Below are positions 6,567 to 52,229 of a stretch of 64,000 nt of DNA, one piece after another. Each line of letters opens with the position of its first letter. Positions within the stretch are counted from its first letter, which is position 1. A program made the translations under genes and the position numbers. Source of the DNA: Bolinopsis microptera (taxonomy: Eukaryota > Ctenophora > Tentaculata > Lobata > Bolinopsidae); the NCBI RefSeq assembly GCF_026151205.1, contig NC_087072.1, forward strand, positions 25,447,799-25,511,798, written 5' to 3'. The notes beneath the pieces were generated by a model that saw only the letters and a list, made by a program, of their open reading frames with translations, was not told where the DNA came from and did no database searches.

Positions 6567-6572
6567 GCCTAT

Positions 6573-8479
6573 TTTGATTTACATTTTTAAACTAAAACAT
6601 GTCCCACCTACCCCGGAACATAAAAGCACTACAGGGGTAAAGATTTTAAAGTCTGGATTTAGCTGGATTTCGGTCATTTTGGGATGGGCGTGGCCCCTGG
6701 GAGTGGCCCGAGTGGGTTGAGAGGTCGAAACTTGATTTTTATGATGGTTTGGGACAGGCAGAACCCATTTTTAAACTAAAACATGTCCCACCTACCCCGG
6801 AACATAAAAGCACTACAGGGGTAAAGATTTTAAAGTCTGGATTTAGCTGGATTTCGGTCATTTTGGGATGGGTGTGGCCCCTGGGAGTGGCCCGAGTGGG
6901 TTGAGAGGTCGAAACTTGATTTTTATGATGGTTTGGGACAGGCAGAACCCATTTTTAAACTAAAACATGTCCCACCTACCCCGGAACATAAAAGCACTAC
7001 AGGGGTAAAGATTTTAAAGTCTGGATTTAGCTGGATTTCGGTCATTTTGGGATGGGCGTGGCCCCTGGGAGTGGCCCGAGTGGGTTGAGAGGTCGAAACT
7101 TGATTTTTATGATGGTTTGGGACAGGCAGAACCCATTTTTAAACTAAAACATGTCCCACCTACCCCGGAACATAAAAGCACTACAGGGGTAAAGATTTTA
7201 AAGTTTGGATTTAGCTGGATTTCGGTCATTTTGGGATGGTCGTGGCCCCTGGGAGTGGCCCGAGTGGGTTGAGAGGTCGAAACTTGATTTTTATGATGGT
7301 TTGGGACAGGCAGAACCCATTTTAAAACTAAAACATGTCCCACCTACCCCGGAACATAAAAGCACTACAGGGGTAAAGATTTTAAAGTCTGGATTTAGCT
7401 GGATTTCGGTCATTTTGGGATGGGCGTGGCCCCTGGGAGTGGCCCGTTTGGGTTGAGAGGTCGAAACTTGATTTTTATGATGGTTTGGGACAGGCAGAAC
7501 CCATTTTTAAACTAAAACATGTCCCACCTACCCCGGAACATAAAAGCACTACAGGGGTAAAGATTTTAAAGTCTGGATTTAGCTGGATTTCGGTCATTTT
7601 GGGATGGGCGTGGCCCCTGGGAGTGGCCCGAGTGGGTTGAGAGGTCGAAACTTGATTTTTATGATGGTTTGGGACAGGCAGAACCCATTTTTAAACTAAA
7701 ACATGTCCCACCTACCCCGGAACATAAAAGCACTACAGGGGTAAAGATTTTAAAGTCTGGATTTAGCTGGATTTCGGTCATTTTGGGATGGGCGTGGCCC
7801 CTGGGAGTGGCCCGAGTGGGTTGAGAGGTCGAAACTTGATTTTTATGATGGTTTGGGACAGGCAGAACCCATTTTTAAACTAAAACATGTCCCACCTACC
7901 CCGGAACATAAAAGCACTACAGGGGTAAAGATTTTAAAGTTTGGATTTAGCTGGATTTCGGTCATTTTGGGATGGTCGTGGCCCCTGGGAGTGGCCCGAG
8001 TGGGTTGAGAGGTCGAAACTTGATTTTTATGATGGTTTGGGACAGGCAGAACCCATTTTAAAACTAAAACATGTCCCACCTACCCCGGAACATAAAAGCA
8101 CTACAGGGGTAAAGATTTTAAAGTCTGGATTTAGCTGGATTTCGGTCATTTTGGGATGGGCGTGGCCCCTGGGAGTGGCCCGTTTGGGTTGAGAGGTCGA
8201 AACTTGATTTTTATGATGGTTTGGGACAGGCAGAACCCATTTTTAAACTAAAACATGTCCCACCTACCCCGGAACATAAAAGCACTACAGGGGTAAAGAT
8301 TTTAAAGTCTGGATTTAGCTGGATTTCGGTCATTTTGGGATGGGCGTGGCCCCTGGGAGTGGCCCGAGTGGGTTGAGAGGTCGAAACTTGATTTTTATGA
8401 TGGTTTGGGACAGGCAGAACCCATTTTTAAACTAAAACATGTCCCACCTACCCCGGAACATAAAAGCACTACAGGGGTG
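6573..8479 (-). repeat. 184-bp satellite array, reverse arm
   Basis: The same satellite runs in reverse complement with a 184-bp period (ACATGTCCCACCTACCCCGG recurs every 184 bp). Private variants such as GGGATGGTCGTGG and CCCGTTTGGG recur 736 bp apart, again four units. Units in this arm are more alike than in the forward arm, so it was homogenised separately or more recently. The ORFs of 78-83 codons in it are repeat translations. Confidence 0.93.
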
Positions 8480-9021: not shown

Positions 9022-12000
9022 CTAACTACCGGACACTTGCAGAGAGCTCAGCACCGTACGCTCATTCTCAGTTAGCGCCTGTAATGGTGAAATAGTGAAA
9101 TATTGCAGAGAAATAGTGAAATATTGCAGAGAAATAGTGAAATATTGCAGATAAATAGGGAAATATTGCAGAGAAATAGCGAAATATTGCCGAGAAATAG
9201 TGAAATATTGCAGATAAATAGTGAAATTGACAGAGATTTAGCGAAATTTACAAATATTTGGTGAAATTTACAAAGATTTAGTGTAATTTACAAAGATTTG
9301 GTGTAATTTACAATGATTTGATGTAATTTACAAAGTGATGGTAGTGTCAACGGTGTTAAAGGTGATCCAGCAAGTGTTAAAGGTGTTAAAGGTGACCCAG
9401 CAAGTGTTAAAGGTGTTAAAGGTGATCCAGCAAGTGTTAAAGGTGATCCAGCAAGTGTTAAAGGTGTTAAAGGTGATCCAGCAAGGTGTTAAAGGTGATC
9501 CAGCAAGTGTTAAAGCTTTAAAGGTGTTAAAGGTGATCCAGCAAGTGTTAAAGCTTTAAAGGTGTTAAAGGTGATACAGCAAGTGTTAAAAGTGTTAAAG
9601 GTGTTAAAGGTGATACAGCAAGTGTTAAAGGTGTTAAAGGTGTAATAGAAGAAGTAACTACCAGACAGAGCTGATTGTAGGTGTTATGAGTGGACAGCTG
9701 AGTTAGGAACTGTTGGAGATGACTGTGTAGATCTACTTCGTTCAGTGGGTCGTCTTTAGTGTCTTCGTCCTGAATAATTTCATAAATATACACTAATATA
9801 CATATTAATAATTATACACATTAGTGTTGATGTATATTACACATTAGTGCTGATGTATATTACACATTAGTGTTGATGTACATTACACATTAGTATTAAT
9901 GTACATTATACATTAACGCTTACACGCCGATCAGTGACTTGTATATAACCAGTTAATTAATTAATCAGCTAATTGTTGATAATTAACGAGTTAGTAAACC
10001 TCATCATCGTCATCTCCCAACATATGAGCAAGTTGAGCGATAGAAACGAACTGAGTTTCCACATCCTCCTCCTCCTCATCATCCTCCTCGTCACTAATGT
10101 CTCCGTTCCTCTCTGCTTCTAATTCCTCCAGCACGTTACCTGTAATTAAGTACCTTACTGGACACTATTTCCTCGGATGTAACTGTAATGACTCGCTGTG
10201 TATCTGGTTAGTGCAGGTGCCTATAGGGGGTGTAGGGAACCCCCCCCCCCCCCAGCTCAGATGTATGATCTAGTGAAGTAGTAGGGAGTAGTGTAATTCA
10301 CCTGATCTCACGTAATGAGTACAGGTGGTATATCCTAAACAGGAAGAATTAAATAGAATTTAACCGATATTATATCCACAGATATCCGGTTTAAAGTAAT
10401 TTCCTAGCATATTATACTCTAGTAGCAGGGTGTAGTAGGATATTAGCTTCAGAATTTACGTGATGATCTAACTGATTTATCAACATCTAATTACGTTAAC
10501 TACTTCATCTAATGATATCATTATACCTAAACTTATCGGTATTCCAACTTATCATTACAACTTACATTTCAACTACACGACTCTGTGAACATTCCAGAGA
10601 GAAATGTAAAACTAGAATGTATTGAGAAATGTAAAACTAGTACAATGTATTTGTCAACAAAAATTAAATTGATTTAGAAAATAATATTTTGGTAAATTTT
10701 TTTGACCCCTTACCCCCCCCCCCCCCCCCCCTGGCCTTAACACTATACACACTACACTCACTACACACTTTAGATTTGTTTGGAGAGGCGAATCATTCAC
10801 AGTTTAGGCTCTTGAAATCTTCGAATTAAAAATCATCTTGAGAGAACCTCCTCAAATTATTTGTTATATAGTAGTGTTGAAAGTATTAAACACACTACAC
10901 ACTATATAGTACACTATATAGTACACCCCAGTAATTCTTCCCGCCATTTAAAGAAGCGGCAACCAGCTTAGTGATTTACACGGCTTACAGTGTAGCACTA
11001 TATTATATATACACGTAGAAATCAACAGTTGACATACGCCACTTCTAGCTTTCTATCTGCACATTAGAGGGAGAAATAACGCAGAGCAAGTTAGATACAG
11101 GGTGAGTGAAAAAAACACTACACTTTGTAATTTAATAATTTAAATTAGAAAGCTTATCTCAACCTTTCTGAAAATTTCTAGTCAATAAGTCTGGACCTTT
11201 TCCTGATAGTAGCCGAAGAGTTTTTAAGAATCGGCCAAATATTTTTTCCACAATCAGCAACCCCTTGGAATACCCATTTAGAAATCCTTGCATTTCTCAA
11301 TTTAACCCTAATATTCGGTTATCTAATTAGGACTCCAAATAAAAATATATGGTATTCTGAATGTCGATTTACCGCGCCCCAATTTACCACAAACCCCGAT
11401 AATCGATATACCGCGGTCATCTCCTTTCCCCTAAATAGGGCTTAACATGTATAATGTAAACAAACAAACCCCGATTTACCGCGGATGCATCGGATGTTTC
11501 CTTTCCCCCAAACCCCGCTGTAAATCGGGGTTTTACTGTACATGTCAATATGATATCTACTTGCAAAGTAACGGCTCATGATTGTGTAACATTAAAACTA
11601 ACCGAACTCCTGTACGAGTATCTTGAATATCTTGACAGTGATAGGTATCATAGTGGGACCCTGTTGAGCTTTAGTGGAACGTGTAATCCTCCCCCCTTCT
11701 AGCGATATCTCCTCATCAGATACCATTATGTGAGTGAGGGGTGAATCCTGGGCCAGGAGGTGGGGCAGGAACTTAGTGAGGGCTATTACTGCTACCTTAG
11801 TTTCATACTCCCCTGTAAACATCTCCTGGATCTCACACCTGGAAATAGATTTATATTATATTATAGTATTATATAAGTACTTTATATTACACCTGGCAGG
11901 GAAATAGTTTTATATTATATTATATAAGTACTTTATATTATACTAGAAAGCCCGTGATCACAGTTTACCTAATTTGTGGGCGGTCGTACATTATACATTT

Positions 12001-15000
12001 TTATACAGCAGAAATAATTTTTTCAGTTATAGTAGAGATTATATTTAAGTACTAAGTACTTTATATTATAATATTATATAAGTACTAAGTACTTTAAATA
12101 TTATATTAGCTGAATTTAAAATACACGTGTATAGTGTATACTTTATATTATAGTACTTTATATTATATTAGCTGAATTTAAAATACACGTGTATTTTAAA
12201 AGCTCCTGCTAAAACAAACTTTTCGTATCACTTATATGTATTTTTCTCCTGTATTTGCCGAATTTTTTCGAAAAATACGGGAAATGTTATAATTAATCTG
12301 TTTTAAAGCTAGGGTCCAACACTCGAAACTGCAAATGTAAGTAACCCTAACAAACCTAACAAAGTAACAAACCATGATTTTAGAACGAAGACGAGACCGT
12401 TTTCTCCAGATGGTGTGTTGATGGACTGAAGGAAGGACATGGAACCTTCTAGATCGTGGTTAAAGAGCTTAATAAATACTACTAACAGGCTCTGCTGGAT
12501 TGTAGGTGACTCACTGAAAGTTAACTATGATAAAGTGAAACAATAAACAATTCTAATAGTGAACAATTCAAACAGTGAACAATTGAAACAGTGAACAATT
12601 GAAACAGTGAACAATTGAAACAGTGAACAATTGAGACAGTGTCCAGTGAACAAGTAACAAATAATATGTCTGAACAAATAAGTGGTTATAACTGCTTACT
12701 GCGCGCGATCTCATTGAGAAGTGTTGAATATTACTATAGTATACAATAGTTAGTGTTAAATGTGCAGTTAGAATTGCTCAGTGCATAAAACAAGGTTACC
12801 AGTTTAAGGTTCTACACATGTCATCAATTATTTTCATAGTAGTAACCGTGTATTAGTAATTGTGATACATTTTTATCATCATTTTAACTTTTACTTAACG
12901 TTATATAAACGTCACATCTTACACTAAATTGATAAAATTAGGGTATTTAAATACAGTGATAAAATACCACAAAAAAATATACCAAAAAAAGTATCGAACA
13001 CATATTAGGATGCAGTATATTAACAATTAAATCCCCCCCCCCCGGCCCCCATATGTGACATATTAATTATTAAGGTAGATCCCCCCCCCATATAATGCGT
13101 GACATATTAACAATTAAGATCCCCCTTATGCGATTATGCGATAAACGTACCATTTAGTGAGTTTGTTAAGAACAGCTTGCAGGATCTTACCATTTAGTGA
13201 GTTTGTTAAGAACAGCTTGCAGGATCTTACCATTTAGTGAGTTTGTTAAGAACAGCTTGCAGGATCTTACCATTTAGTGAGTTTGTTAAGAACAGCTTGC
13301 AGGATCTTACCATTTAGTGAGTTTGTTAAGAACAGCTTGCAGGATCTTACCATTTAGTGAGTTTGTTAAGAACAGCTTGCAGGATCTTACCATTTAGTGA
13401 GTTTGTTAAGAACAGCTTGCAGGATCTTACCATTTAGTGAGTTTGTTAAGAACAGCTTGCAGGATCTGGTTGATGTTGAGAGCTGCTCCAGCGTGTTTAA
13501 TAAGACTGGATACCAATCTACCGGAGTAAAGAGCCCCATACTCGCTCATTTCCGGGTCTAACATCTTAGCAATGAGCTGCATAGTGTACTCCATACCAGT
13601 TATACCATTAATAGTTAGAGCGGTGACTTGCTGGAATCCCAGCGCGAGACACGCCCGCACACACTCCCCGCCACTCTGCAGGATAGCTGTACTGTCCTTC
13701 ACACACCCTATTGTAAGAGCCATCGCGGCCGGGAACACTTCCTTAATATACACCTGGGGGAGGGGACATTAGTGAGGTATACACCTGGGGGAGGGGAGAT
13801 TAGTGAGGTATACACCTGGGGGAGGGGAGATTAGTGAGGTATACACCTGGGGGAGGGGAGATTAGTGAGGTATACACCTGGGGGAGGGGAGATTAGTGAG
13901 GTATACACCTGGGGGAGGGGAGATTAGTGAGGTATACACCTGGGGGAGGGGAGATTAGTGAGGTATACACCTGGGGGAGGGGAGATTAGTGAGGTATACA
14001 CCTGGGGGAGGGGAGATTAGTGAGGTATACATCTGGGGGAGGGGAGATTAGTGAGGTATACACCTGGGGGAGGGGAGATTAGTGAGGTATACACCTGGGG
14101 GAGGGGAGATTAGTGAGGTATACACCTGGGGGAGGGGAGATTAGTGAGGTATACACCTGGGGGAGGGGAGATTAGTGAGGTATACACCTGGGGGAGGGGA
14201 GATTAGTGAGGTATACACCTGGGGGAGGGGAGATTAGTTAGGTATACACCTGGGGGAGGGGAGATTAGTGAGGTATACACCTGGGGGAGGGGAGATTAGT
14301 GAGGTATACACCTGGGGGAGGGGAGATTAGTGAGGTATACACCTGGGGGAGGGGAGATTAGTGAGGTATACACCTGGGGGAGGGGAGATTAGTGGGGTAT
14401 ACACCTGGGGGAGGGGAGATTAGTGAGGTATACACCTGGGGGAGGGGAGATTAGTGAGGTATACACCTGGGGGAGGGGAGATTAGTGAGGTATACACCTG
14501 GGGGAGGGGAGATTAGTGAGGTATACACCTGGGGGAGGGGAGATTAGTGAGGTATACACCTGGGGAGGGGAGATTAGTGAGGTATACACCTGGGGGAGGG
14601 GAGATTAGTGAGGTATACACCTGGGGGAGGGGAGATTAGTGAGGTATACACCTGGGGGAGGGGAGATTAGTTAGGTATACACCTGGGGGAGGGGAGATTA
14701 GTGAGGTATACACCTGGGGGAGGGGAGATTAGTGAGGTATACACCTGGGGGAGGGGAGATTAGTGAGGTATACACCTGGGGGAGGGGAGATTAGTGAGGT
14801 ATACACCTGGGGGAGGGGAGATTAGTGAGGTATACACCTGGGGGAGGGGAGATTAGTGGGGTATACACCTGGGGGAGGGGAGATTAGTGAGGTATACACC
14901 TGGGGGAGGGGAGATTAGTGAGGTATACACCTGGGGGAGGGGAGATCAGTGAGGTATACACCTGGGGGAGGGGAGATTAGTGAGGTATACACCTGGGGGC

Positions 15001-18000
15001 GGGGAGATTAGTGAGGTATACACCTGGGGGAGGGGAGATTAGTGAGGTATACACCTGGGGGAGATGTGAGATTAGTGAGGTATACACCTGGGGGAGGGGA
15101 GATTAGTGAGGTATACACCTGGGGGAGATGTGAGATTAGTGAGGTATACACCTGGGGGAGGGGAGATTAGTGAGGTATACACCTGGGGGAGGGGAGATTA
15201 GTGAGGTATACACCTGGGGGAGGGGAGATTAGTGAGGTATACACCTGGGGGAGATGTGAGATTAGTGAGGTATACACCTGGGGGAGGGGAGATTAGTGAG
15301 GTATACACCTGGGGGAGGGGAGATTAGTGAGGTATACACCTGGGGGAGGGGAGATTAGTGAGGTATACACCTGGGGGAGGGGAGATTAGTGAGGTATACA
15401 CCTGGGGGAGGGAAGATTAGTGAGGTATACACCTGGGGAGGGGAGATTAGTGAGGTATAAACCTGGGGGAGGGGACATTAGTGAGGTATACACCTGGGGG
15501 AGGGGAGATTAGTGAGGTATACACCTGGGGGAGGGGACATTAGTGAGGTATACACCTGGGGGAGGGGAGATTAGTGAGGTATACACCTGGGGGAGGGGAG
15601 ATTAGTGAGGTATACACCTGGGGGAGGGGAGATTAGTGAGGTATACACCTGGGGGAGGGGAGATTAGTAAGGTATACACCTGGGGGAGGGGAGATTAGTG
15701 AGGTATACACCTGGGGGAGGGGACATTAGTGAGGTATACACCTAGGGGAGGGGAGATTAGTGGGGTATACACCTGGGGGAGGGGAGATTAGTGAGGTATA
15801 CACCTGGGGGAGGGGACATTAGTGAGGTATACACCTGGGGGAGGGGAGATTAGTGAGGTATACACCTGGGGGAGGGGAGATTAGTGAGGTATACACCTGG
15901 GGGAGGGGAGATTAGTGAGGTATAAACCTGGGGGAGGGGACATTAGTGAGGTATACACCTGGGGGAGGGGAGATTAGTGAGGTATACACCTGGGGGAGGG
16001 GAGATTAGTGAGGTATACACCTGGGGGAGGGGAGATTAGTGAGGTATACACCTGGGGGAGGGGAGATTAGTGAGGTATACACCTGGTGGAGGGGAGATTA
16101 GTGAGGTATCAGGTATACACCTGGGGGAGGGGAGATTAGTGAGGTATACACCTGGGGGAGGGGAGATTAGTGAGGTATACACCTGGGGGAGGGGAGATTA
16201 GTGAGGTATACACCTGGGGGAGGGGAGATTAGTGAAGTATACACCTGGGGGAGGGGAGATTAGTGAAGTATACACCTGGGGGAGGGGAGATTAGTGAGGT
16301 ATACACCTGGTGGAGGGGAGATTAGTGAGGTATCAGGTATACACCTGGGGGAGGGGAGATTAGTGAGGTATACACCTGGGGGAGGGGAGATTAGTGAGGT
16401 ATACACCTGGGGGAGGGGAGATTAGTGAGGTATACACCTGGGGGAGGGGAGATTAGTGAAGTATACACCTGGGGGAGGGGAGATTAGTGAAGTATACACC
16501 TGGGGGAGGGGAGATTAGTGAGGTATACACCTGGGGGAGGGGAGATTAGTGAGGTATACACCTGGGGGAGGGGAGATTAGTGAGGTATACACCTGGGGGA
16601 GGGGAGATTAGTGAGGTATACACCTGGGGGAGGGGAGATTAGTGAGGTATACACCTGGGGGAGGGGAGATTAGTGAGGTATACACCTGGGGGAGGGGAGA
16701 TTAGTGAGGTATACACCTGGGGGAGGGGAGATTAGTGAGGTATACACCTGGGGGAGGGGAGATTAGTGAGGTATACACCTGGGGGAGGGGAGATTAGTGA
16801 GGTATACACCTGGTGGAGGGGAGATTAGTGAGGTATACACCTGGGGGAGGGGAGATTAGTGGGGTATACACCTGGGGGAGGGGAGATTAGTGAGGTATAC
16901 ACCTGGGGGAGGGGAGATTAGTGAGGTATACACCTGGGGGAGGGGAGATTAGTGAGGTATACACCTGGGGGAGGGGAGATTAGTGAGGTATACACCTGGT
17001 GGAGGGGAGATTAGTGAGGTATCAGGTATACACCTGGGGGAGGGGAGATTAGTGAGGTATACACCTGGGGGAGGGGAGATTAGTGAGGTATACACCTGGG
17101 GGAGGGGAGATTAGTGAGGTATACACCTGGGGGAGGGGAGATTAGTGAAGTATACACCTGGGGGAGGGGAGATTAGTGAAGTATACACCTGGGGGAGGGG
17201 AGATTAGTGAGGTATACACCTGGGGGAGGGGAGATTAGTGAGGTATACACCTGGTGGAGGGGAGATTAGTGAGGTATACACCTGGGGGAGGGGAGATTAG
17301 TGAGGTATACACCTGGGGGAGGGGAGATTAGTGAGGTATACACCTGGGGGAGGGGAGATTAGTGAGGTATACACCTGGTGGAGGGGAGATTAGTGAGGTA
17401 TACACCTGGGGGAGGGGAGATTAGTGGGGTATACACCTGGGGGAGGGGAGATTAGTGAGGTATACACCTGGGGGAGGGGAGATTAGTGAGGTATACACCT
17501 GGGGGAGGGGAGATTAGTGAGGTATACACCTGGGGGAGGGGAGATTAGTGAGGTATACACCTGGGGGAGGGGAGATTAGTGAGGTATACACCTGGGGGAG
17601 GGGAGATTAGTGAGGTATACACCTGGGGGAGGGGAGATTAGTGAAGTATACACCTGGGGGAGGGGAGATTAGTGAAGTATACACCTGGGGGAGGGGAGAT
17701 TAGTGAGGTATACACCTGGGGGAGGGGAGATTAGTGAGGTATACACCTGGGGGAGGGGAGATTAGTGAGGTATACACCTGGGGGAGGGGAGATTAGTGAG
17801 GTATACACCTGGGGGAGGGGAGATTAGTGAGGTATACACCTGGGGGAGGGGAGATTAGTGAGGTATACACCTGGGGGAGGGGAGATTAGTGAGGTATACA
17901 CCTGGTGGAGGGGAGATTAGTGAGGTATACACCTGGGGGAGGGGAGATTAGTGGGGTATACACCTGGGGGAGGGGAGATTAGTGAGGTATACACCTGGGG

Positions 18001-21000
18001 GAGGGGAGATTAGTGAGGTATACACCTGGGGGAGGGGAGATTAGTGAGGTATACACCTGGGGGAGGGGAGATTAGTGAGGTATACACCTGGTGGAGGGGA
18101 GATTAGTGAGGTATCAGGTATACACCTGGGGGAGGGGAGATTAGTGAGGTATACACCTGGGGGAGGGGAGATTAGTGAGGTATACACCTGGGGGAGGGGA
18201 GATTAGTGAGGTATACACCTGGGGGAGGGGAGATTAGTGAAGTATACACCTGGGGGAGGGGAGATTAGTGAAGTATACACCTGGGGGAGGGGAGATTAGT
18301 GAGGTATACACCTGGGGGAGGGGAGATTAGTGAGGTATACACCTGGTGGAGGGGAGATTAGTGAGGTATACACCTGGGGGAGGGGAGATTAGTGAGGTAT
18401 ACACCTGGGGGAGGGGAGATTAGTGAGGTATACACCTGGGGGAGGGGAGATTAGTGAGGTATACACCTGGTGGAGGGGAGATTAGTGAGGTATACACCTG
18501 GGGGAGGGGAGATTAGTGGGGTATACACCTGGGGGAGGGGAGATTAGTGAGGTATACACCTGGGGGAGGGGAGATTAGTGAGGTATACACCTGGGGGAGG
18601 GGAGATGTGAGGTATAACTAAAGACTGAAAACTAACATCAGGTAGAGGAGGAGGAGTTTTCCTGATGAAGGTAGTGAGGAGATCCAGGACCTCAGTTCTC
18701 ATGTCCTCCTCATCCTCCTCGCTCTGCTTCTTAGGAGAAGTAGCAGTGGGGGATCTTAGAATCTGGAGCAGGACGGGTACTACATTGTTCTGTATAGACC
18801 CTCTGCATTCCGGTATTTCAGCTAGAGTTATCAGCACGTCATTAACCTGAGAGTAAGAGGGTTAGGGACCAGATATAGGGGGGGTTAGGGACCATATATA
18901 GGGGGGTTAGGGACCAGATATAGGGGGGTTAGGGACCATATATAGGGGGGTAAGGGACCAGATATAGGGGGGTTAGGGACCAGATATAGGGGGTTAGGGA
19001 CCATTATATATAGGGGGTTATGGACCAGATATAGGGGGATTAGGGACCAGATATAGGGGGTTAGGGACCAGATATAGGGGGTTAGGGACCAGATATAGGG
19101 GGTTAGGGACCAGATATAGGGGGGTTAGGGACCAGATATAGGGGGGTTAGGGACCAGATATAAGGGGGTTAGGGACCAGATATAATAGGGGGTTAGGGAC
19201 CAGATATAGGGGGGTTAGGGACCAGATATAGGGGGGTTAGGGACCAGATATTGGGGGGTTAGGGACCAGATATAGGGGGGTTAGGGACCAGATATAGGGG
19301 GGTTAGGGACCAGATATAGGGGGGTTAGGGACCAGATATAGGGGGGTTAGAGACCAGATATAGGGGGGTTAGGGACCAGATATGATATAGGGGGTTAGGG
19401 ACCAGATATAGGGGGGTTAGGGACCATATTATATAGGGGGTTAGGGACCAGATATAGGGGGTTAGGGACCAGATATAGGGGGGTTAGGGACCAGATATAG
19501 GGGGGTAAGGGACCAGATATAGGACAGCAATAGCAGCAAATCTGGGGAAACTTTGAAATACACCACTTTGAAGCATTTGACCACCCCTTAAAAATCACAA
19601 ATTATGAATTCTAGTAATCTGAATATTTACATAGGTCCAAAAATGTCATAGCTTCATGATAGTGCAACGAAATAAATCCCAGAACATTTTGGTGCTGATG
19701 TTACAGTGTACGCGTGCGCGCGCGCGCGTACTTAACCATCTGTAGGCCAACATATTTAGTTTATGCTTAATTTCTTTATATATTATGTCACCACTAGAGT
19801 GCCCAATACTTTTAGTGAAGGTGTAATGTAAAACGGTTAACCACCAACTGTGGTATATCAAAAAAACCCCAAAAGTGTATGTGTGCGCGCGCGCGCGTAC
19901 TTAACCACCTGGAATGGCACAGCATTGAGATATCACCATAATTCCAAAAGCAGAGTACACCATCCAGGTGCCCAAAACTTTTGGCTATGGTCCCAATACC
20001 ATAAAACCTTAGATGTGGCCATAATGTGGTTAAAACATGTTGATTTTGGACCTTCGGTCAACAGAAGCCATCACAAATTAACCATTATTCAGCACAATCT
20101 GACCTTTTGGTGCCTTATTTTGTTTTGATATTTGATTATGAGAGATAGCTGAAGGATAATAAGTGATTTTAAAGATAATGCAACAAAACTTGTGGCCGTA
20201 TGGCGGTTAAAACGACCAAAAACACTAACTTTGGTCAATTTAAGACCTTTATTAACCATGATGGACGCAACATAGGACTCAGCAATGTTTCTGGTCATAT
20301 AAATGAGCAGGTAGTTATATCTAGATAATGTAGCATGGCCAGCTATAGCTTTACAAAGCTAATATGTGCTCTAACAAGAAATGCGGCCGCTTTTCTTTTG
20401 TGGATGGCCGCTCAATTTCCCGATCCGTGATGGAGTATTTGATCATATTCCATACCACCTGTGGACCCCAGTCTTTACTGTTTATAAGCATGCAGATATG
20501 GCGGAGTGACAGGCCGAGCGCCGCCCAGTTGATATAATTCCATATTTAATTTGAAAATCGTGTATATTTCTATGTAACCATATGTTTATTGTTTATGCAA
20601 CCTGACACGGATTTGTGCAAAATAGTAATACTAACTCAAAATAATAATAATATGCTATCAATTAGTCCCTAGCGGGATGCGTACATGATGAAATTAACAA
20701 TGTACTTGAACATTTCAGCACCGCGCGCCAACAATTGTTTAATTCAGATTTTCGCGCAAAATAACTTTGCGCAGGCAGACACGTGGGCAAAACGTACGCA
20801 GACACGCACGCTCGCACGCAGGTACGGTCGCAAAGCTACCATATCCCAAAAAAAACCTTGATCGCTAACCCTTGTCCTTGACTCTTTTGTGCCTTCGGCA
20901 CTTGAGTCATGGATCGGGAAAAAATGGTTAATTAGTGCAAATATAGGGTATTTTCGAGACATTTTAACCACCTTAGCTGCACATTGATCGGAATGCATGA

Positions 21001-24000
21001 ACTTGGGGTCAATTATGCATTTGCAAACAAATATACACTCATTTGGATAGCAAACCATTATCTGAAGTTCATATTGTGGTTAATTTTCACTTTAATAGAT
21101 GCCTTGTTCAACAGCCTAGCAAGTAATATAGCCCTTTTAACCACTTTTATGACAACATTTCTTGATAACTTTTATCAAGACCCTTCAAATGTCCTTTGTT
21201 GACCATAAAATGTTGACTAAAATCATTAATATTAATAATGTTTTGATTGGTGGTTAACAACAAATTTTGACATTTTAACCATCTTTTTAGCACTTTTTAC
21301 AAATATTAACCACCTCAAATCAACCATACTATTAAATTGCACATTTGTGATAAAAAATTATCATCCATGCACAAATGAACAACCACCACTATACATCTAT
21401 AATCAGAGCAATATTTATAGCTCACCGTTCATCTTCAATTTAACCACCATTAGGACCACAAAATGCCCCCCATGAGGTTTGAAAACTTTTGTGATAGTTG
21501 CACCATGATATGATCTCAATATAATGACTACTCAGTTCATAATATCATATCTCAAAATGGTGGTTAACCCTAAAACTGGTATTTTAACCACCATAGCATA
21601 GTGGCCACATAGATGACCCATTAACCACAATTATTCAACATAACCGTACTGCAGTGTTTTGTGCACCAGAAAAACATCACTCCAACATTGAGATTAACCA
21701 CAATGAGCTGCAACATAATGTTGAAGTCAACATACTCAAATTGTGTGAAAAAAAGTCAATGTCCACCAAGTTTCCCCAGATTTGCTGCTATTGCTGAGGA
21801 GGGTTAGGGTTAGGGACCAGATAAAGGGGGGTTAGGGACCAGATATAGGGGGGTTATGGACCAGGTATAGGGGGTTAGGGTTAGGGACCAGATATAGGGG
21901 GTTAGGGTTAGGGACCAGATATAGGGGGGTAAGGGACCAGATATAGGGGGTTAGGGACCAGATATAGGGGGGTTAGGGACCAGATATAGGGGCCAGGGCC
22001 GGGGGGTAAGGGATGAAATATTATACTGAGAGGGAGTTAGGGGATATGGACCATATAAATGGTTCGTTGTGGAAAAATTGAGTACTTTCAACCTGATTTA
22101 ATTAATTATTTAAGTTTCAACCTGATTTAATTGATTGTTTAAGTTTCAACCTGATTTAATTGATTGTTTAAGTTGCAACCTGACTGACGACGAAAGTGTC
22201 ACTAGCGTGTTTAACGAACAGCTCGACCAGGAACGTGTTGACTTTGTCTGCCTCTACAGCTACAATATCAGGTCTGAAGCCCACACTGACTCTGAGGGCG
22301 TCTAGACAGAGCATGAGGAGGTCTCCCTCCATATTACCTGCCAGGTCAAACAGAGAGGGGATTATAAGCTCCATTGACTTGTGCAATACCTGAAACAGTA
22401 CATACTTGTTTGTAATTTTCTACGTAAAGTTTGCAGTGGTGATATCAAATTCCCACTGAAATGCGAAACCGTATAATAAAAATGGCGGTGTAGAATAAAA
22501 AAGTATTACCAGTTTCTCTTCTGGCTCAGTGAGCTCAGCACACATAGCGTAGACCCCCTTCATAGCACCTATCATAACTGCAGCAGGAGTGCCTGGTTTG
22601 AGAGCAGTGCAGGTGTGTTCTAGCAGCGTGTTTAGAGACTCTTCCGAGGGGAGGCGCTTAATGTAGCTCCCTGTCATCCATATTAGTCTCCCTCGTAGAT
22701 AAGGCTTATCTACATTTAGTCCGGGCAACACAACCGTGTTGTAGAAAGCTCCAAAGTTGAAATCCACCTTCTTAGCTTCCAAACACTCCTCCACCACGTC
22801 TCCACTGATGTTCATAGCTGTTGCACACGCTTCATATAACTTCCAGTTATACCCCTCCGCGATATTCCCGCAGGAGGAGATGTGCCGCGTGATGGCGTTC
22901 ATGAGCGCTTCTACGTAGGACGTCTTCAGTTCAGTAGCCAGATCCATGAGCAGCTCCATAGCTCCTGTTCGTACTGTGTAGTTCATGCTATCCTCGTCAT
23001 CATCCTCCACGTACTTCTCTGGGTCTTCATTCCACAACTCCATCTAGCAGAGTTACCATAACGTTAACAATTACTGTACAATCTAACTCCATCTAGCAGA
23101 GTTACCATAACGTTAACAATTACTGTACAATCTAACTCCATCTAGCAGGTATACCATAACGTTAACAATTACTGTACAATCTAACTCCATCTAGCAGGTA
23201 TACCATAACGTTAACAATTACTGTACAATCTAACTCCATCTAGCAGAGTTACCATAACGTTAACAATTACTGTACAATCTAACTCCATCTAGCGGGTATA
23301 CCATAACGTTAACAATTACTGTACAATCTAACTCCATCTAGCAGGTATACCATAACGTTAACAATTACTGTACATTCCACAACTCCATCTAGCAGGTATA
23401 CCATAACGTTAACAATTACTGTACATTCCACAACTCCATCTAGCAGGTATACCATAACGTTAACAATTACTGTACAATCTAACTCCATCTAGCAGGTATA
23501 CCATAACGTTAACAATTACTGTACAATCTAACTCCATCTAGCAGGTATACCATAACGTTAACAATTACTGTACAATCTAACTCCATCTAGCAGGTATACC
23601 ATAACGTTAACAATTACTGTACAATCTAACTCCATCTAGCAGAGTTACCATAACGTTAACAATTACTGTACAATCTAACTCCATCTAGCAGGTATACCAT
23701 AACGTTAACAATTACTGTACAATCTAACTCCATCTAGCAGGTATACCATAACGTTAACAATTACTGTACAATCTAACTCCATCTAGCAGGTATACCATAA
23801 CGTTAACAATTACTGTACAATCTAACTCCATCTAGCAGGTGTACCATAACGTTAACAATTACTGTACATTCCACAACTCCATCTAGCAGAGTTACCATAA
23901 CGTTAACAATTACTGTACAATCTAACTCCATCTAGCAGGTATACCATAACGTTAACAATTACTGTACAATCTAACTCCATCTAGCAGGTATACCATAACG

Positions 24001-27000
24001 TTAACAATTACTGTACAATCTAACTCCATCTAGCAGAGTTACCATAACGTTAACAATTACTGTACAATCTAACTCCATCTAGCAGGTATACCATAACGTT
24101 AACAATTACTGTACAATCTAACTCCATCTAGCAGAGTTACCATAACGTTAACAATTACTGTACAATCTAACTCCATCTAGCAGGTATACCATAACGTTAA
24201 CAATTACTGTACAATCTAACTCCATGTAGCAGGTATACCATAACGTTAACAATTACTGTACAATCTAACTCCATCTAGCAGGTATACCATAACGTTAACA
24301 ATTACTGTACAATCTAACTCCATCTAGCAGGTATACCATAACGTTAACAATTACTGTACAATCTAACTCCATCTAGCAGGTATACCATAACGTTAACAAT
24401 TACTGTACAATCTAACTCCATCTAGCAGAGTTACCATAACGTTAACAATTACTGTACAATCTAACTCCATCTAGCAGAGTTACCATAACGTTAACAATTA
24501 CTGTACAATCTAACTCCATCTAGCAGGTATACCATAACGTTAACAATTACTGTACAATCTAACTCCATCTAGCAGGTATACCATAACGTTAACAATTACT
24601 GTACATTCCACAACTCCATCTAGCAGGTATACCATAACGTTAACAATTACTGTACAATCTAACTCCATCTAGCAGGTATACCATAACGTTAACAATTACT
24701 GTACAATCTAACTCCATCTAGCGGGTATACCATAACGTTAACAATTACTGTACAATCTAACTCCATCTAGCAGGTATACCATAACGTTAACAATTACTGT
24801 ACAATCTAACTCCATCTAGCAGAGTTACCATAACGTTAACAATTACTGTACAATCTAACTCCATCTAGCGGGTATACCATAACGTTAACAATTACTGTAC
24901 AATCTAACTCCATCTAGCAGGTATACCATAACGTTAACAATTACTGTACATTCCACAACTCCATCTAGCAGGTATACCATAACGTTAACAATTACTGTAC
25001 AATCTAACTCCATCTAGCAGGTATACCATAACGTTAACAATTACTGTACAATCTAACTCCATCTAGCGGGTATACCATAACGTTAACAATTACTGTACAA
25101 TCTAACTCCATCTAGCAGGTATACCATAACGTTAACAATTACTGTACAATCTAACTCCATCTAGCAGGTATACCATAACGTTAACAATTACTGTACAATC
25201 TAACTCCATCTAGCAGGTATACCATAACGTTAACAATTACTGTACAATCTAACTCCATCTAGCAGGTATACCATAACGTTAACAATTACTGTACATTCCA
25301 CAACTCCATCTAGCAGGTATACCATAACGTTAACAATTACTGTACATTCCACAACTCCATCTAGCAGGTATACCATAACGTTAACAATTACTGTACATTC
25401 CACAACTCCATCTAGCAGGTATACCATAACGTTAACAATTACTGTACAATCTAACTCCATCTAGCAGGTATACCATAACGTTAACAATTACTGTACAATC
25501 TAACTCCATCTAGCAGGTATACCATAACGTTAACAATTACTGTACAATCTAACTCCATGTAGCAGGTATACCATAACGTTAACAATTACTGTACAATCTA
25601 ACTCCATCTAGCAGGTATACCATAACGTTAACAATTACTGTACAATCTAACTCCATCTAGCAGGTATACCATAACGTTAACAATTACTGTACAATCTAAC
25701 TCCATGTAGCAGGTATACCATAACGTTAACAATTACTGTACAATCTAACTCCATCTAGCAGGTATACCATAACGTTAACAATTACTGTACAATCTAACTC
25801 CATCTAGCAGGTATACCATAACGTTAACAATTACTGTACAATCTAACTCCATCTAGCAGGTATACCATAACGTTAACAATTACTGTACAATCTAAATTCT
25901 AGCAGGTATACCATAACGTTAACAATTACTGTACAATCTAACTCCATCTAGCAGGTATACCATAACGTTAACAATTACTGTACAATCTAACTCCATCTAG
26001 CAGGTATACCATAACGTTAACAATTACTGTACAATCTAACTCCATCTAGCAGGTATACCATAACGTTAACAATTACTGTACAATCTAACTCCATCTAGCA
26101 GGTATACCATAACGTTAACAATTACTGTACAATCTAACTCCATCTAGCAGAGTTACCATAACGTTAACAATTACTGTACAATCTAACTCCATCTAGCAGG
26201 TATACCATATAAATAAATATTATTAAATACCGATACCTATTTTGAAATCGGAGGGAATAATAGGTATTTATAGGTATTTTACCAAAGATCGTCTAGGGCA
26301 GCTAAAAGTTACTTTTTTGGACGTTCCAGAAGATTGTGAGCAACATTAATTTTTGAAATTTTAGGTGAAAAATGAAAATTTCATTAAAAGATTTTTACTT
26401 GAGAATATTTTTAATTGTTGTTTAATTGTTGTTCAAAATGTTCAGAAACTTCTATATTGAAGAGATAGAAAAGTAAATAACGGGGGGTAATACCTGGTAT
26501 TCAGGTATAGACAGGTAGGTGATGGGATAGAAAAGTAAATAACGGGGGTAATACCTGGTATTCAGGTATAGACAGGTAGGTGATGAGATAGAAAAGAACG
26601 TCAGGTAACACTTTCCTTATCATAGCCTTGTATTTCTTACGTTCCGTTAAAGCCTGTATAAACTCGAATATGGCCTGTACCAGACTCCCGAACCCCATCT
26701 CAGATCCGTCACTATCCACCTGAACATGTGAATAGTTTAGGGATTAGATATAGAGGGTGTCAAATGTCAATAGTTTAAGATTTTAGGAGAAGGCTATAGT
26801 GAAACCAAAAGACAATTGAAGTGAAATGTAAAATAGCTAACATCGTCCTCTACATAGTCAGGGTTGTTAACAACTGTAGTGATGTGATTCTCTGCATTCT
26901 TGGTGAGAAGGGTCCACAGCACTGGGAGAGCACTCGATACCTGTAGAAGTTGGTTGATATTTGACCAATTTATGGGCCAAAATCGATCAAATTTGGTGAG

Positions 27001-30000
27001 TATGCCCAAATATGGGCATATAGTTTTTAGCTCATAACTCAGTCCAATCTTAATGAAAATTCATATATTAGGACGCAATGAAACTACCGGACCACGATGT
27101 ATGGGGACTTGCCACCCCATGGCAACATTAAAATATATCGACTCAGTTACATCGTGATGTACGAGTTTAGGGCACCACTAGCCCTAAAGGGGGGGGCACA
27201 ATAGAGCATACTGACTACTAGATAGTACTCACCTTATCTCCCATCTGTTTAGGGAAAGTTTGTACGAGTTTAGATAGGAAGTTAACACACTCAGTCTGTA
27301 GTTTGTAATCCTGTCTGACAGAAACAGTAGCTCCTATCAGGGATATAGTGGTGTCCACCAGACCTGGCAGTATGGGGAACAGTAGGTTCTCATTAGCAGC
27401 GTGGTCCACTGTGTCCATGTGGCTGATTAGAGTGGTAAACACTCCGAATATGGAGAGGACGCGGGCACGTGTAGCTGGCCCGAACGTCTCCGTTTGGAAG
27501 AGTTGGATAAGCCGGGGGAAGAGGACTGGGGCCACTGTGTAGACCTGAAGAGTTAATAGTACTTAACCATCTGAGGTACCGAGAATGATAGATTACAAGT
27601 ACTCGGCAATAAACTACAGTACCTACCGAAGTAAAAAATATCGCATAATTTTTGTGTTTCGAGCTAGGAAGGATGTAGAAACTTTTCCAATGTTGGAAAA
27701 TGTTCGCAATGACCAAATTTATATATAACTATAACCCTTATAGTTATAACTATAAGGCTTATGATTCATAATATGCTCGTAAATGCTTAAAACTTGAACT
27801 TGAAAAACTTTATCGATAACTATTGTGGTCATATTTGGAATTCGATATTTGCATAATATATTTAAGTACCATTTTCGGGCTTTAGTATTGACGATATATT
27901 TTCAAGCATATGTTATTTTTTAGCTCAGTATTCATGATATTTTCTGGGATGACTAGTTCAAACACTGCTGAGTATAAGATTTATCTTAAAAGCGGTGTTA
28001 TTAAATTTCAATTTATTATTATTATTATTATTTTTACACACAGCGTGGTTCACATTACCTGACTGTCAGTAATGTCACTAGCCAGCTCAGAGAGAACCTT
28101 CATAACTCCATGCACTTGGTTAGGGTCCCCAGTTCCCATCATACTCAGCAGCTGGTCAAACAGACCCGTCCAGTTGTCCGGGAAATCTACACAAGCTATC
28201 TCTGATACTACAGCTGCCACAGAGCTCCTGAAACCAAAACTCAGTCATTAACCTCGTTACTATCTCACATTACATACCAAAATACTCATGACACCCCGCC
28301 CCCCCCCCCCCCACATATCAGGGCAGCATGTGCCCCCCCCCCCCCCAGATATACGCCCCCCCCCCCCCCGCAGATATACGCATCAGGGCAGCATGTGTCC
28401 CCCCCCCCCCCCAGTATCAAGGCAGCATGTGTCCCCCCCCCCCCCCAGCATGTTTCCCCCCCCCCCCAGATATCAGGGCAGCATGTGTCACACGCCCCCT
28501 CCCCCCCCCCAAATATACGCCCCCCCCCCCCCCCAGATATATGTATAATCAGGGCAGCATGTGTCCCCCCCCCCAGTATCAGGGCAGCATGTGTCCCCCC
28601 CCCAGTATCAGGGCAGCATGTGTCCCCCCCCCCAGTATCAGGGCAGCATGTGTCCCCCCCCCCCCAGTATCAGGGCAGCATGTGTCCCCCCCCCAGTATC
28701 AGGGCAGCATGTGTCCCCCCCCCCCAGTATCAGGGCAGCATGTGTCCCCCCCCCCAGTATCAGGGCAGCATGTGTCCCCCCCCCCCAGTATCAGGGCAGC
28801 ATGTGTCCCCCCCCCAGTATCAGGGCAGCATGTGCCCCCCCCCCCCCCCAGTATCAGGGCAGCATGTGTCCCCCCCCCCAGTATCAGGGCAGCATGTGTC
28901 CCCCCCCCCCCAGTATCAGGGCAGCATGTGTCCCCCCCCCCCCCCCAGTATCAGGGCAGCATGTGTCCCCCCCCCCCAGTATCAGGGCAGCATGTGTCCC
29001 CCCCCCCCAGTATCAGGGCAGCATGTGTCCCCCCCAGTATCAGGGCAGCATGTGTCCCCCCCCCCCAGTATCAGGGCAGCATGTGTCCCCCCCCCAGTAT
29101 CAGGGCAGCATGTGTCCCCCCCCCCAGTATCAGGGCAGCATGTGTCCCCCCCCCCCCAGTATCAGGGCAGCATGTGTCCCCCCCCCAGTATCAGGGCAGC
29201 ATGTGTCCCCCCCCCCCAGTATCAGGGCAGCATGTGTCCCCCCCCCCCCCAGTATCAGGGCAGCATGTGTCCCCCCCCCCCAGTATCAGGGCAGCATGTG
29301 CCCTCCCCCCCCCAGATATCAGGGCAGCATGTCACATGTGTCCACAGACCACAGTTAGCTTTGCTTCAACACGAGCTGACAATGCATTCCAGTGGATAGT
29401 ATGTGAGCAACTCCTCTAACCTGATTTTACTAAGCCCCCCCCCCCCCCCCCCCCCCCCCCCCAGATATACTGTATAGTATCTGAGCAACTCCTCTAACCT
29501 GATTTTACTAAGCCCCCCCCCCCACCCCCCCCCCCCCCACCCCCCCCCCCCCCCCCCCCCCCCCAGATATCAGGGCAGCATGTCACATGTGTCCACAGAC
29601 CACAGTTAGCTTTGCTTCAACACGAGCTGACAATGCATTCCAGTGGATAGTATCTGAGCAACTCCTCTAACCTGATTTTACTAAGCCCCCCCCCCCACCC
29701 CCCCCCCCCCCCCCCACCCCCCCCCCCCCCCCCCCCCCCCCCCCAGATATCAGGGCAGCATGTCACATGTGTCCACAGACCACAGTTAGCTTTGCTTCAA
29801 CACGAGCTGACAATGCATTCCAGTGGTTACTGGATAGTATCTGAGCAACTCCTCTAACCTGATTTTACTAAGCCCCCCCCCCCCCCCCCCCCCCCCTCCA
29901 GATATACTGGATAGTATCTGAGCAACTTCTCTAACCTGATTTTACTAAGGCTGTCACCCAGACCTGGGAGAATGTTATTCTTGACGACCTCTTTTGTAGC

Positions 30001-30349
30001 TGTGTGTGGACAGTCCTGCCAGGAACTGTCTGCAAACTGTTTGAGTAGTACACCTGCCATCTGACGCACTGATAGAGGGGCGTCCTGAAGTTATCAAGTA
30101 TAAATGAGATGTCTTGAGAAGGAACAAATTTCAATTGTCTTAAGATATATTTCCCTTGACGAGATTAGAAAAATAAAGAAATACAAAAACTGACTAACCT
30201 GTCGGAGTAGAATTGACAGAAGGCTGGTGGCATAGTCTGGATGCGGTTTGAAGACATTGAGTTGCTCCTGGGCTGCATCTTGTTCACTTTTATTAGCCGA
30301 GAGGGCCTGAGATATGAGGGGAGCTATTTGCTCAACAGACATGCTGCTA
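9022..30349 (-). CDS. IPO9: Importin-9, complete 15-coding-exon gene
   Basis: Coding exons: 30349-30199 (ATG 30342), 30084-29936, 28227-28059, 27544-27233, 26940-26842, 26719-26555, 23043-22510, 22389-22180, 18846-18637, 13753-13431, 12513-12373, 11838-11603, 10139-10000, 9769-9662, 9078-9022. Every intron is GT...AG, phases agree and the sum is 998 codons plus TAG; human IPO9 is of similar length. Recognisable blocks in order: GLGDSLSKIRSSVAAVVSEI, the acidic VDSDGSEMGFGSLVQAIFEF, DPEKYVEDDDEDSMNYTVRT, LQSGGECVRACLALGF, DPEMSEYGALYSGRLVSSLI, GRITRSTKAQ, a Glu/Asp-rich stretch (EEDDEEEEED) and the tail ALTENERTVL. Importin-9 is a karyopherin-beta built of HEAT repeats; it carries histones, actin and ribosomal proteins into the nucleus and is controlled by Ran-GTP. 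Introns are swollen by minisatellites (4.9, 3.5, 3.3 and 1.7 kb), but the coding frame is intact. The 18-residue last exon is short and easily missed. Confidence 0.95.
9086..9661. repeat. Three successive minisatellites filling the last IPO9 intron
   Basis: The 583-nt intron between exons 14 and 15 is almost entirely tandem repeat. At 9086-9230 the unit is 21 bp (GTGAAATATTGCAGAGAAATA). At 9232-9335 it is about 24 bp around GAAATTTACAAAGATTT. At 9340-9650 it is 21 bp (GTGTTAAAGGTGATCCAGCA). The first array abuts the acceptor at 9079. Read through from exon 14, the third array would give a Pro/Leu/Thr-rich artefact tail; splicing to exon 15 restores the conserved C terminus. Confidence 0.88.
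10850..10890. repeat. 41-bp dispersed repeat, identical to 54294-54334
   Basis: A 41-base block beginning CCTCAAATTATTTGTTATAT and ending GTTGAAAGTATTAAA occurs here in an IPO9 intron and again, identical and same orientation, upstream of the LINE-B ORFs. Outside it the two loci differ. It is probably a fragment of a mobile element 5' region. Confidence 0.7.
11380..11545. mobile_element. Remnant of a Tc1/mariner-pogo-like element end
   Basis: The block ends TCGGGGTTTTACTGTA, and the reverse complement starts TACAGTAAAACCCCGATTTA, the look of a pogo/Tigger-type terminal repeat next to a TA. Partial copies of CCCCGATTTACCGCGG precede it. No matching opposite terminus was found, so this is probably truncated. 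Confidence 0.35.
11836..11945 (-). repeat. Duplicated acceptor region of IPO9 exon 12
   Basis: The segment CACCTGGAAATAG...TTTATATTATATTATA...AAGTACTTTATATTA occurs twice in tandem. On the transcript strand each copy ends in CTATTTCC(CTGC)CAGGTGT, so the 3' splice site with the first exon bases (GTGT) is present in two copies about 60 nt apart. Confidence 0.65.
12540..12640. repeat. 18-bp tandem repeat upstream of the IPO9 exon 11 acceptor
   Basis: Five to six copies of AACAATTGAAACAGTG lie about 30 nt upstream, in the transcript, of the acceptor at 12514. They occupy the branch-point side of the intron. The AG itself is not duplicated. Confidence 0.75.
13149..13468 (-). repeat. 40-bp tandem array of exon-end plus 5' splice site (IPO9 exon 10)
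   Basis: Eight copies of a 40-bp unit start at 13149, 13189, 13229, 13269, 13309, 13349, 13389 and 13429; the last is the genuine end of exon 10. On the transcript strand each unit reads as the last 31 exon bases, ending CAAACTCACTAAATG, followed by GTA. Seven extra donors therefore follow the real one at 40-nt spacing. Internal units read ATG|GTAAGATCC; the most distal reads ATG|GTACGTTT, probably the original intron start. Copies are essentially identical, so the expansion is young. Confidence 0.92.
13754..18608 (-). repeat. 31-bp minisatellite, about 155 copies, each a copy of the exon 10 3' splice site
   Basis: The plus-strand unit starts GGTATACACCTGGGGGAGGG and ends GAGATTAGTGA. On the transcript strand each copy reads CTCACTAAT (branch-point-like), then CTCCCCTCCCCCAG, then GTGTATA, which equals the real acceptor plus the first seven bases of exon 10 (GTGTATATTAAGG at 13753). 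The array fills nearly all of the 4.9-kb intron. Rare variants (GGTATCAGGTATACACC at about 16109, 16332, 17026 and 18114; GGTGGAGG units) recur in the same order about 1.09 kb apart, so large segments have been duplicated within it. Confidence 0.95.
18857..19524. repeat. 22-bp minisatellite with TTAGGG core, part 1
   Basis: About 30 copies of GGTTAGGGACCAGATATAGG (plus two or three G) begin 10 nt upstream, in the transcript, of the exon 9 acceptor at 18847. The transcript-strand unit (CCCTAACCCCCCTATATCTGG) supplies a branch-like CCCTAAC and a pyrimidine run. The array is cut at 19524 by a TIR element and resumes at 21797. Confidence 0.92.
19525..21796. mobile_element. 2.27-kb non-autonomous TIR DNA element inside the 22-bp array
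   Basis: The ends are a near-perfect inverted repeat of about 29 bp: CAGCAATAGCAGCAAATCTG then GGGAAACTT at 19525, and its complement ending CAGATTTGCTGCTATTGCTG at 21796 (first base of that copy is the last C of TTTCCCC). The flanks AGGA/AGGA suggest a 4-bp target duplication. The interior is rich in TTAACCAC / GTGGTTAA motifs in both orientations, which look like subterminal binding repeats, and in two GCGCGCGCG blocks about 170 bp apart. No transposase ORF is visible. Pieces of the same family recur at 56283-56455 and 58224-58275. Confidence 0.8.
21797..22010. repeat. 22-bp minisatellite with TTAGGG core, part 2
   Basis: This continues the array interrupted at 19524, with several GGGTTAGGGTTAGGGACC variants holding two TTAGGG units in a row. 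It degenerates toward exon 8. Confidence 0.9.
22085..22183 (-). repeat. About 30-bp tandem copies of the exon 8 donor
   Basis: The exon 8 end reads GTCAG|GTTGCAACTTAAAC on the transcript strand. Directly downstream are three more TCAG|GTTGAAACTT copies in units of about 29-30 bp (plus-strand core TTTCAACCTGATTTAATT). Each keeps CAG|GTTG, so it is a donor-like sequence. Confidence 0.8.
23044..26205 (-). repeat. 49-bp minisatellite, about 64 copies, each carrying the exon 7 acceptor
   Basis: The plus-strand unit contains CTCCATCTAGCAGGTATACC then ATAACGTTAACAATTACTGTACAAT. On the transcript strand each copy reads TACCTGCTAG|ATGGAGTT, matching the genuine junction CTCTGCTAG|ATGGAGTTGTGGAATG at 23043. 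A minority of 51-bp units (for example near 23365, 23860, 24600 and 25290) keep 16 exon bases (ATGGAGTTGTGGAATG). The array fills the 3.5-kb intron 6. Minus-strand ORFs across it are artefacts. Confidence 0.95.
26494..26615 (-). repeat. 61-bp tandem duplication of the exon 6 end and donor
   Basis: On the transcript strand the end of exon 6 (CTGTCTATACCTGAATACCAG) plus GTATTACCCCC is present twice, with donors after 26555 and 26494. The upstream donor gives the conserved SIPEYQ end and correct phase. Use of the downstream donor would add 61 nt and shift the frame. Confidence 0.88.
28288..29290 (-). repeat. C-tract minisatellite (about 29-bp units) in IPO9 intron 2
   Basis: About 30 units alternate a run of 6-16 C with AGTATCAGGGCAGCATGTGT. 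The transcript strand is therefore G-rich, with G runs of 6-16 every 29 nt. The long plus-strand Pro-rich ORFs (up to 363 codons, open in three frames) are repeat translations, not genes. Run length varies from unit to unit. Confidence 0.93.
29291..29935 (-). repeat. Longer tandem units with four copies of the exon 2 donor
   Basis: Next to exon 2 the repeat changes to units of about 80-180 bp made of a C tract, an AGATATCAGGGCAGCATGTC segment and TATCTGAGCAACTCCTCTAA. Each ends with plus-strand CTCTAACCTGATTTTACTAA (near 29414, 29492, 29664, 29852), which on the transcript strand is TTAGTAAAATCAG|GTTAGAG, the genuine exon 2 end and donor (29936/29935). Four additional donor copies therefore follow the real one. 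Confidence 0.88.
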
Positions 30350-30478
30350 CTGAAATGTATAAAGGTCAGGTGACATGCTGCTACTGAAATGTATAAATGT
30401 CAGGTGACATGCTGCTACTGAAATGTATAAAGGTCAGGTGACATGCTGCTACTGAAATGTAAAAAGGCCAGGTGACAG
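30350..30478 (-). repeat. 34-bp tandem copies of the first coding exon acceptor and ATG
   Basis: The acceptor TACATTTCAG|TAGCAGCATGTC at 30350/30349 is followed upstream in the transcript by three more copies at 34-bp spacing (GACATG at 30338, 30372, 30406 and 30440). Every copy includes branch side, AG, five leader bases and an initiator-like ATG. A non-coding 5' exon must lie further upstream; I could not locate it. Confidence 0.85.
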
Positions 30479-48632: not shown

Positions 48633-48639
48633 ATTTCTT

Positions 48640-51048: not shown

Positions 51049-51055
51049 ATTTCTT

Positions 51056-52063: not shown

Positions 52064-52229
52064 TTTATGCTGCTATAAACTTGTCAGAATAAGATAAATT
52101 GCAGAACTGGCAAATTTGTATGAGATAATAACAAAACTTTCTAAAACTTCAATAAACATGAGGAACAATGTGTAATTATCCCTTATCTAGAATCTAGATG
52201 AAATAAATGTTAACAATCTTTCTGAAAAT

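Follow-up and report, generated by a model that had tools for sequence, protein, structure and literature searches.

Tandem repeats across splice junctions of an importin-9 gene in the ctenophore Bolinopsis microptera are probably 'mirage' minisatellites

An importin-9 gene with repeat-rich introns

We analyzed a stretch of 64,000 nucleotides from the ctenophore Bolinopsis microptera (assembly GCF_026151205.1, contig NC_087072.1, here C1, positions 25,447,799 to 25,511,798; in the following, the window), which carries a gene for importin-9 (IPO9) whose introns contain tandem repeats running across exon-intron boundaries. The gene is complete and located on the minus strand at 9022..30342, with 15 exons that join into a single frame of 998 codons. 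All 14 introns are of the GT..AG type, and human importin-9 is colinear with the protein of the window over residues 11-993 (E=7.6e-180). Based on the joined frame and the human match, the exons were placed on the minus strand at 30342-30199, 30084-29936, 28227-28059 and 27544-27233 (exons 1-4), 26940-26842, 26719-26555, 23043-22510 and 22389-22180 (exons 5-8), 18846-18637, 13753-13431, 12513-12373 and 11838-11603 (exons 9-12), and 10139-10000, 9769-9662 and 9078-9022 (exons 13-15). These predicted borders appear to be fixed well enough to judge claims about individual junctions, with the exception of exon 1, upstream of which no further exon was identified.

Copies of splice junctions within the adjacent arrays

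A first-pass annotation of this DNA had claimed that eight IPO9 exon edges are copied in the neighboring intronic repeats. Junctions were probed with a word of 20 bases, 10 from either side of the exon-intron boundary, allowing up to two mismatches within 6 kb; arrays were located by Tandem Repeats Finder (TRF) and their units were then read directly in the sequence. The junction word recurs at 5/28 splice junctions, namely the donors of exon 2 (four extra copies), exon 6 (one) and exon 10 (six) and the acceptors of exons 7 and 10 (ten each), so that five of the eight claimed copies stand by this measure. Taking the direct reading of units into account, repeats span the boundaries at the donors of exons 2, 6, 8 and 10 and at the acceptors of exons 7 and 10.

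All arrays described here are given on the minus strand. At the exon 2 donor (29414..29949), the real site lies in 29929-29949 and the four further copies at 29852-29872, 29665-29685, 29492-29512 and 29414-29434, separated by poly-C. The exon 6 donor is part of a 61-bp repeat (26458..26596, 2.3 copies) whose unit includes 42 exon bases, and the exon 10 donor lies within eight identical 40-bp units (13148..13467), each consisting of 37 exon bases followed by GTA. The acceptor arrays are much larger: 64.5 copies of a 49-bp unit at exon 7 (23036..26209), each carrying CTAG and 8 exon bases, in some units 16, and 156 copies of a 31-bp unit at exon 10 (13747..18616), made up of a pyrimidine tract, CAG and 7 exon bases. 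Since most of the latter units hold only these 7 exon bases, the closest copy of the exon 10 acceptor word is found 2.5 kb away.

The other three claimed edges are less clear. A repeat is indeed present at the exon 8 donor (22086..22183, 29 bp, 3.4 copies, three of them extra), with only four exon bases (TCAG) per unit. At the exon 12 acceptor (11838/11839) there is one duplication, a single imperfect and AT-rich copy starting at about 11889 (region 11835..11919). The edge of exon 1, which had been described as an acceptor, lies in a 34-bp array (30338..30477, 4.1 copies) that contains the start codon and an acceptor-like TTTCAG; the array is real, while its role as an acceptor rather than as 5' untranslated region is unproven. 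The word at the ATG edge finds no copy within 6 kb at up to two mismatches, and the acceptor-like site scores 3.64 in a small splice-site matrix, where the 14 acceptors of IPO9 span 3.03-10.06. An intronic place seems likelier than the 5' untranslated region, given that the repeated ATGs of the array open short frames. In addition, the donor of exon 11 is touched by a 9-bp repeat of 3.2 copies whose first base still belongs to the exon (12346..12373); this repeat was absent from the earlier list.

Tandem repeats with a period of at least 9 bp cover 27% of the window, compared with 0-85% of 22 other stretches. Intron 2 also contains, at 28298-29896, many C runs of 9-59 bases, alone or within repeats of 23-180 bp.

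Composition of the repeat units

Next, we compared the units of seven junction arrays with each other, leaving out exon 12. The 21 pairwise local scores range from 5 to 13, against a mean of 6.9 and a maximum of 20 for shuffled sequences, which bears out the proposal of the first-pass annotation that the arrays are independent expansions of unrelated units.

The array at exon 10 acceptor occupies, with its about 156 units, all of intron 9 except the first 20 bases, and with the array collapsed this intron would measure only about 51 bp. At the donor of the same exon, the last unit continues into GTACGT and the first reads GTAAGA, because exon sequence follows its GTA. Presumably, GTACGT is the donor as it was before the duplication; in the splice-site matrix it scores 4.63 and GTAAGA 5.54.

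A second copy of IPO9

Exon probes revealed that the contig carries IPO9 a second time in the same orientation (C1, about 25746700-25767000), 286-291 kb from the copy in the window. The two copies differ at 3/299 exon bases, at 4/96 bases at the head of intron 8 and at 9/492 aligned bases of intron 10, the latter with 14 additional gaps, so that the sampled pieces diverge by 1-4% overall. They may be two retained haplotypes or paralogues. For B. microptera, the portions of two reports considered here give a k-mer genome size of about 254 Mb (PMC10232365) and 265 Mb with 13 chromosomes (PMC11797021), and the assembly totals 264.65 Mb; its surplus over the k-mer estimate would be consistent with the retention of some haplotypes.

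Comparing the arrays between the two copies, which could be alleles or paralogues, showed that their numbers of units mostly differ. The exon 10 donor has eight units in the window and two in the second copy, and in both of them the last unit leads into GTACGT and the first reads GTAAGA. Similarly, three and two extra units are found at the exon 8 donor and 4 and 16 units in the 5' array, while the exon 6 donor has two units in each copy. The acceptor arrays of exons 7 and 10 are common to both. The probe interval from exon 10 to exon 9 measures 5181 bases in the window and 10580 bases in the second copy, from which we estimate about 330 units in the second intron 9 (about 156 in the window); for an exact 31-mer of this intron, we counted 110 occurrences in the window and 283 genome-wide. 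In the case of the exon 7-to-6 interval, 3740 bases in the window compare with 2681 in the second copy, corresponding to about 22 units fewer. For the exon 2 donor word, one match was located in the second copy; its distance from the 5' array is 614 bases, compared with 415 in the window. Since arrays are shared and their numbers differ, duplication would have come first and expansion later; judged from the sequences, most junction duplications seem to predate the split of the two copies, and the changes in copy number seem to be younger.

Intron 8 also harbors a 2272-bp element (19525-21796) with 29-base inverted ends, inserted within a 22-bp GGGTTAGGGACCAGATATAGGG array. Its exact end occurs 62 times in forward and 64 times in reverse orientation in the genome, and many of the listed pairs are about 1.9 kb apart. 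The interval from exon 9 to exon 7 is 1827 bases shorter in the second IPO9 copy, which fits the absence of the element there.

Choice among equivalent splice sites

With so many copies of the same signal, the reading frame provides information on the site in use. At exon 10, we found 153 acceptor-like sites including the real one, of which 152 would disrupt the frame or introduce a stop; the frame is kept solely by the acceptor closest to the exon. Of 62 acceptor-like sites found at exon 7, the nearest 12 were followed, and all 11 other than the real one meet a stop. The gene model thus requires the exon-proximal choice, and we infer that this is the site spliced in IPO9. In the portions of the amphioxus reports considered here, reverse transcription PCR is reported to show splicing undisturbed by repeats of this kind (PMC3087553, PMC3902484).

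Resemblance to the mirages of amphioxus

The first-pass annotation knew of no named phenomenon that fits, but one exists. According to the same portions of these reports, tandem repeats spanning exon-intron boundaries were named 'mirages' in the Adh3 gene of amphioxus and were also reported for its globin (BflGb6, BflGb9), TnC and PGBD5 genes (PMC3087553, PMC3902484), with unit lengths of 10-72, 60, 108 and 150-160 bp. As described there, amphioxus mirages resemble the IPO9 arrays in crossing boundaries at donors as well as acceptors and in carrying splice signals in many units. Their copy number varies between haplotypes (those of BflGb6 have 6 and 3 units), that of the IPO9 arrays between two gene copies, alleles or paralogues. 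The case described here differs in its ctenophore host, in at least five such arrays within one gene and in array sizes of up to about 156 units. A further likeness is offered by human genes in segmental duplications, for which the part of the report considered here describes internal tandem repeats with minisatellite-size units of about 30 bp at exon-intron boundaries (PMC2812944); there, new introns or alternative transcripts were proposed, whereas IPO9 gives no sign of intron birth. For ctenophores, no report of boundary-spanning minisatellites was among the papers listed in a literature search naming the group and in wider ones, a thin basis for concluding on their absence.

The IPO9 arrays are real and of a kind already known, extreme in degree through unusually long arrays of acceptor copies, and they extend the mirage phenomenon beyond amphioxus to a ctenophore. 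Their most probable origin, which we favor with good though incomplete confidence, lies in small duplications that were random and harmless and that subsequently expanded. If the genome readily undergoes short tandem duplication and some introns were short before their arrays grew, a duplication of 30-60 bp at a random position would often straddle a splice junction. It could persist as long as the copy closest to the exon still worked as the junction, since any further copies would be removed together with the intron. Some arrays may later have grown to hundreds of copies by slippage or unequal exchange. As the first-pass annotation had suggested, duplications are evidently tolerated when the splice site next to the exon stays in place.

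Spanning arrays compared with random placement

To what extent arrays span junctions more often than by chance was assessed in 270 kb of sampled genome, counting introns with conserved coding sequence on their flanks (48 introns of 10 genes). These genes are IPO9, MCM3, MCM4, MCM5 and MCM6, the identities of the four MCM genes having been checked against solved structures, together with genes that we take to be MCM2, MCM7, NOP56, a gelsolin-like and an inositol-kinase-like gene. Predicted exons outside the conserved MCM parts and a spurious 24-base predicted MCM3 exon were left out of the counts. Arrays had a period of at least 9 and a score of at least 40. From the array test we dropped the third MCM5 intron (wrong AG) and a 98-bp row that is part of the transposon-split 22-bp array, and the transposon length was subtracted from intron 8. 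The exon 2 donor array, which TRF starts 35 bases into the intron, was entered by hand as spanning.

In total, 7/37 arrays span a junction. Random placement of the 37 arrays predicts 4.78 spanning ones if all arrays of an intron are collapsed (P=0.17), and a run with slightly different rules gave 6/38 against 4.69 (P=0.31). At a score of at least 50, 7/29 arrays span a junction, with P=0.14 for all arrays collapsed, 0.019 for only the array in question collapsed and 0.0013 at present intron length. The two collapsed lengths are the fairer assumptions, because the birth of an array comes before its growth. For IPO9 alone, 6/25 arrays are spanning against 3.94, 2.34 and 1.22 expected under the same three assumptions, an excess inflated because IPO9 was picked for showing the feature; in the nine other genes it is 1/12 against 0.84, 0.82 and 0.72. 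Outside IPO9, a degenerate 31-bp array of 2.6 copies runs across the exon 6 acceptor of MCM4 (3339-3420 on the reverse strand of stretch L032), so that this genome holds a mirage in a further gene.

In addition, we asked how many 20-mers recur within 300 bases (up to three mismatches) at increasing distance from the 14 IPO9 junctions per side. On the donor side, the fraction is 0/14, 2/14 and 2/14 at 60, 40 and 20 bases into the exon, 4/14 at the junction and 3/14, 4/14, 6/14, 5/13, 4/11, 4/11 and 4/9 moving into the intron. The acceptor side shows 0/14 at all three exon distances, 2/14 at the junction and 3/14, 5/14, 6/14, 7/13, 8/11, 7/11 and 3/9 in the intron. In IPO9, we thus observe no peak of tandem copies at the junctions. 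Exons have few copies, junctions take a middle position and intron interiors have the most, the junction values being equal to or lower than those found 40-150 bases into the intron. None of the 34 donors and 34 acceptors of the nine other genes pass this stricter test, by which the MCM4 array is not counted, and 0 or 1 do so at the other distances, exon included.

Alternative explanations

A process acting on intron ends, as considered by the first-pass annotation, would make splice junctions hot spots of tandem duplication, be it via a lesion coupled to transcription or splicing or via AG|GT micro-repeats. Several observations weigh against random duplication and in favor of this idea. The same 7/37 spanning arrays exceed an expectation of 3.16 with only the array in question collapsed (P=0.022) and of 1.94 at present intron length (P=0.0018), so that the outcome depends on whether introns are measured as they were before the arrays grew or as they are now. 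At a score of at least 90, 7/21 arrays are spanning (P=0.086, 0.0095 and 0.0004 in the order used above), and IPO9 is the only one of the 10 genes with more than one spanning array. Genome-wide, CAGGTAAG occurs twice within 18-48 bases at 1187 places, against 38 for the reversed control. At face value this raw count would favor a hot spot, but it is silent on how often arrays start at donors, and it was dropped, as all listed places but the first two sit in one array at C1 6.658-6.666 Mb. Considering the missing junction peak in IPO9, the 1/12 arrays against 0.7-0.8 expected in the nine other genes and the selection of IPO9 for showing the feature, we regard a hot spot as unlikely, while a modest bias towards junctions is possible. 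Equally doubtful is the combined proposition that transcription- or splicing-linked events over-represent junctions as birthplaces of duplications and that the spliceosome, faced with more than 150 equivalent acceptors, reliably takes the one closest to the exon.

Selection might instead preserve the copies because they tune the splicing of IPO9, acting as spare sites or as decoys. The AG is intact in all of the about 156 units of intron 9, and the array copies score higher than the real acceptor of exon 10 (9.14 against 8.77 in the matrix). Homogenisation of the units suffices for this retention, however, because 17/31 positions of the intron 9 unit and 40/49 of the intron 6 unit are equally free of any mismatch; moreover, the G is lost in 3 of about 64 units of intron 6, one of the four units closest to exon 10 in the second IPO9 copy has AA in place of AG, and copy number ranges from 2 to 8 at the exon 10 donor and from 4 to 16 in the 5' array. 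Tuning by selection is thus quite improbable. Even less credit goes to the birth of the introns by tandem duplication of an AG|GT segment, with the arrays as remains. Such intron gain is on record in the portion of the literature considered here and likewise starts from a tandemly duplicated segment with a splice signal in it, but IPO9 copied junctions that already existed. Intron birth also predicts one unit at both intron ends, whereas intron 6, the one of 14 introns compared, has unrelated units at its donor and its acceptor, and the acceptor and donor units of exon 10 are unrelated as well. Assembly errors, finally, could be suspected from the eight identical 40-bp units in one IPO9 copy and from two copies on one contig that may be two haplotypes both kept. 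We consider them the least plausible source of the arrays, as the second copy was assembled apart, with its own substitutions, and has the same junction duplications in different numbers; the exact copy numbers could nevertheless be wrong.

Taken as mirages, the IPO9 arrays suggest that repeats at intron ends can do without a process directed at junctions, provided that the introns were short prior to array growth, and that intron length can shift fast with the protein unchanged. Intron 9 represents an extreme natural case: its own acceptor, repeated about 156 times, makes up nearly its entire length, and the frame is kept by the last copy only. It bears on how the spliceosome chooses among equal 3' sites, by exon definition or by scanning.

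Other elements of the window

Downstream of IPO9, at 4332-8478, a single 184-185-bp satellite forms two adjoining arrays that point in opposite directions; the reverse complement of a unit from the first array scores 152 against the second array, the forward sequence 13. On the other side of the gene, domain matches mark three open frames resembling non-long terminal repeat retrotransposons at 36993-38348 (plus strand), 46627-48648 and 50978-52072 (both minus strand). Two of the matches are to reverse transcriptase (E=5.8e-18 and 3.5e-37), and another, to an endonuclease, is weak and narrowly misses the cut-off (E=2.8e-05).

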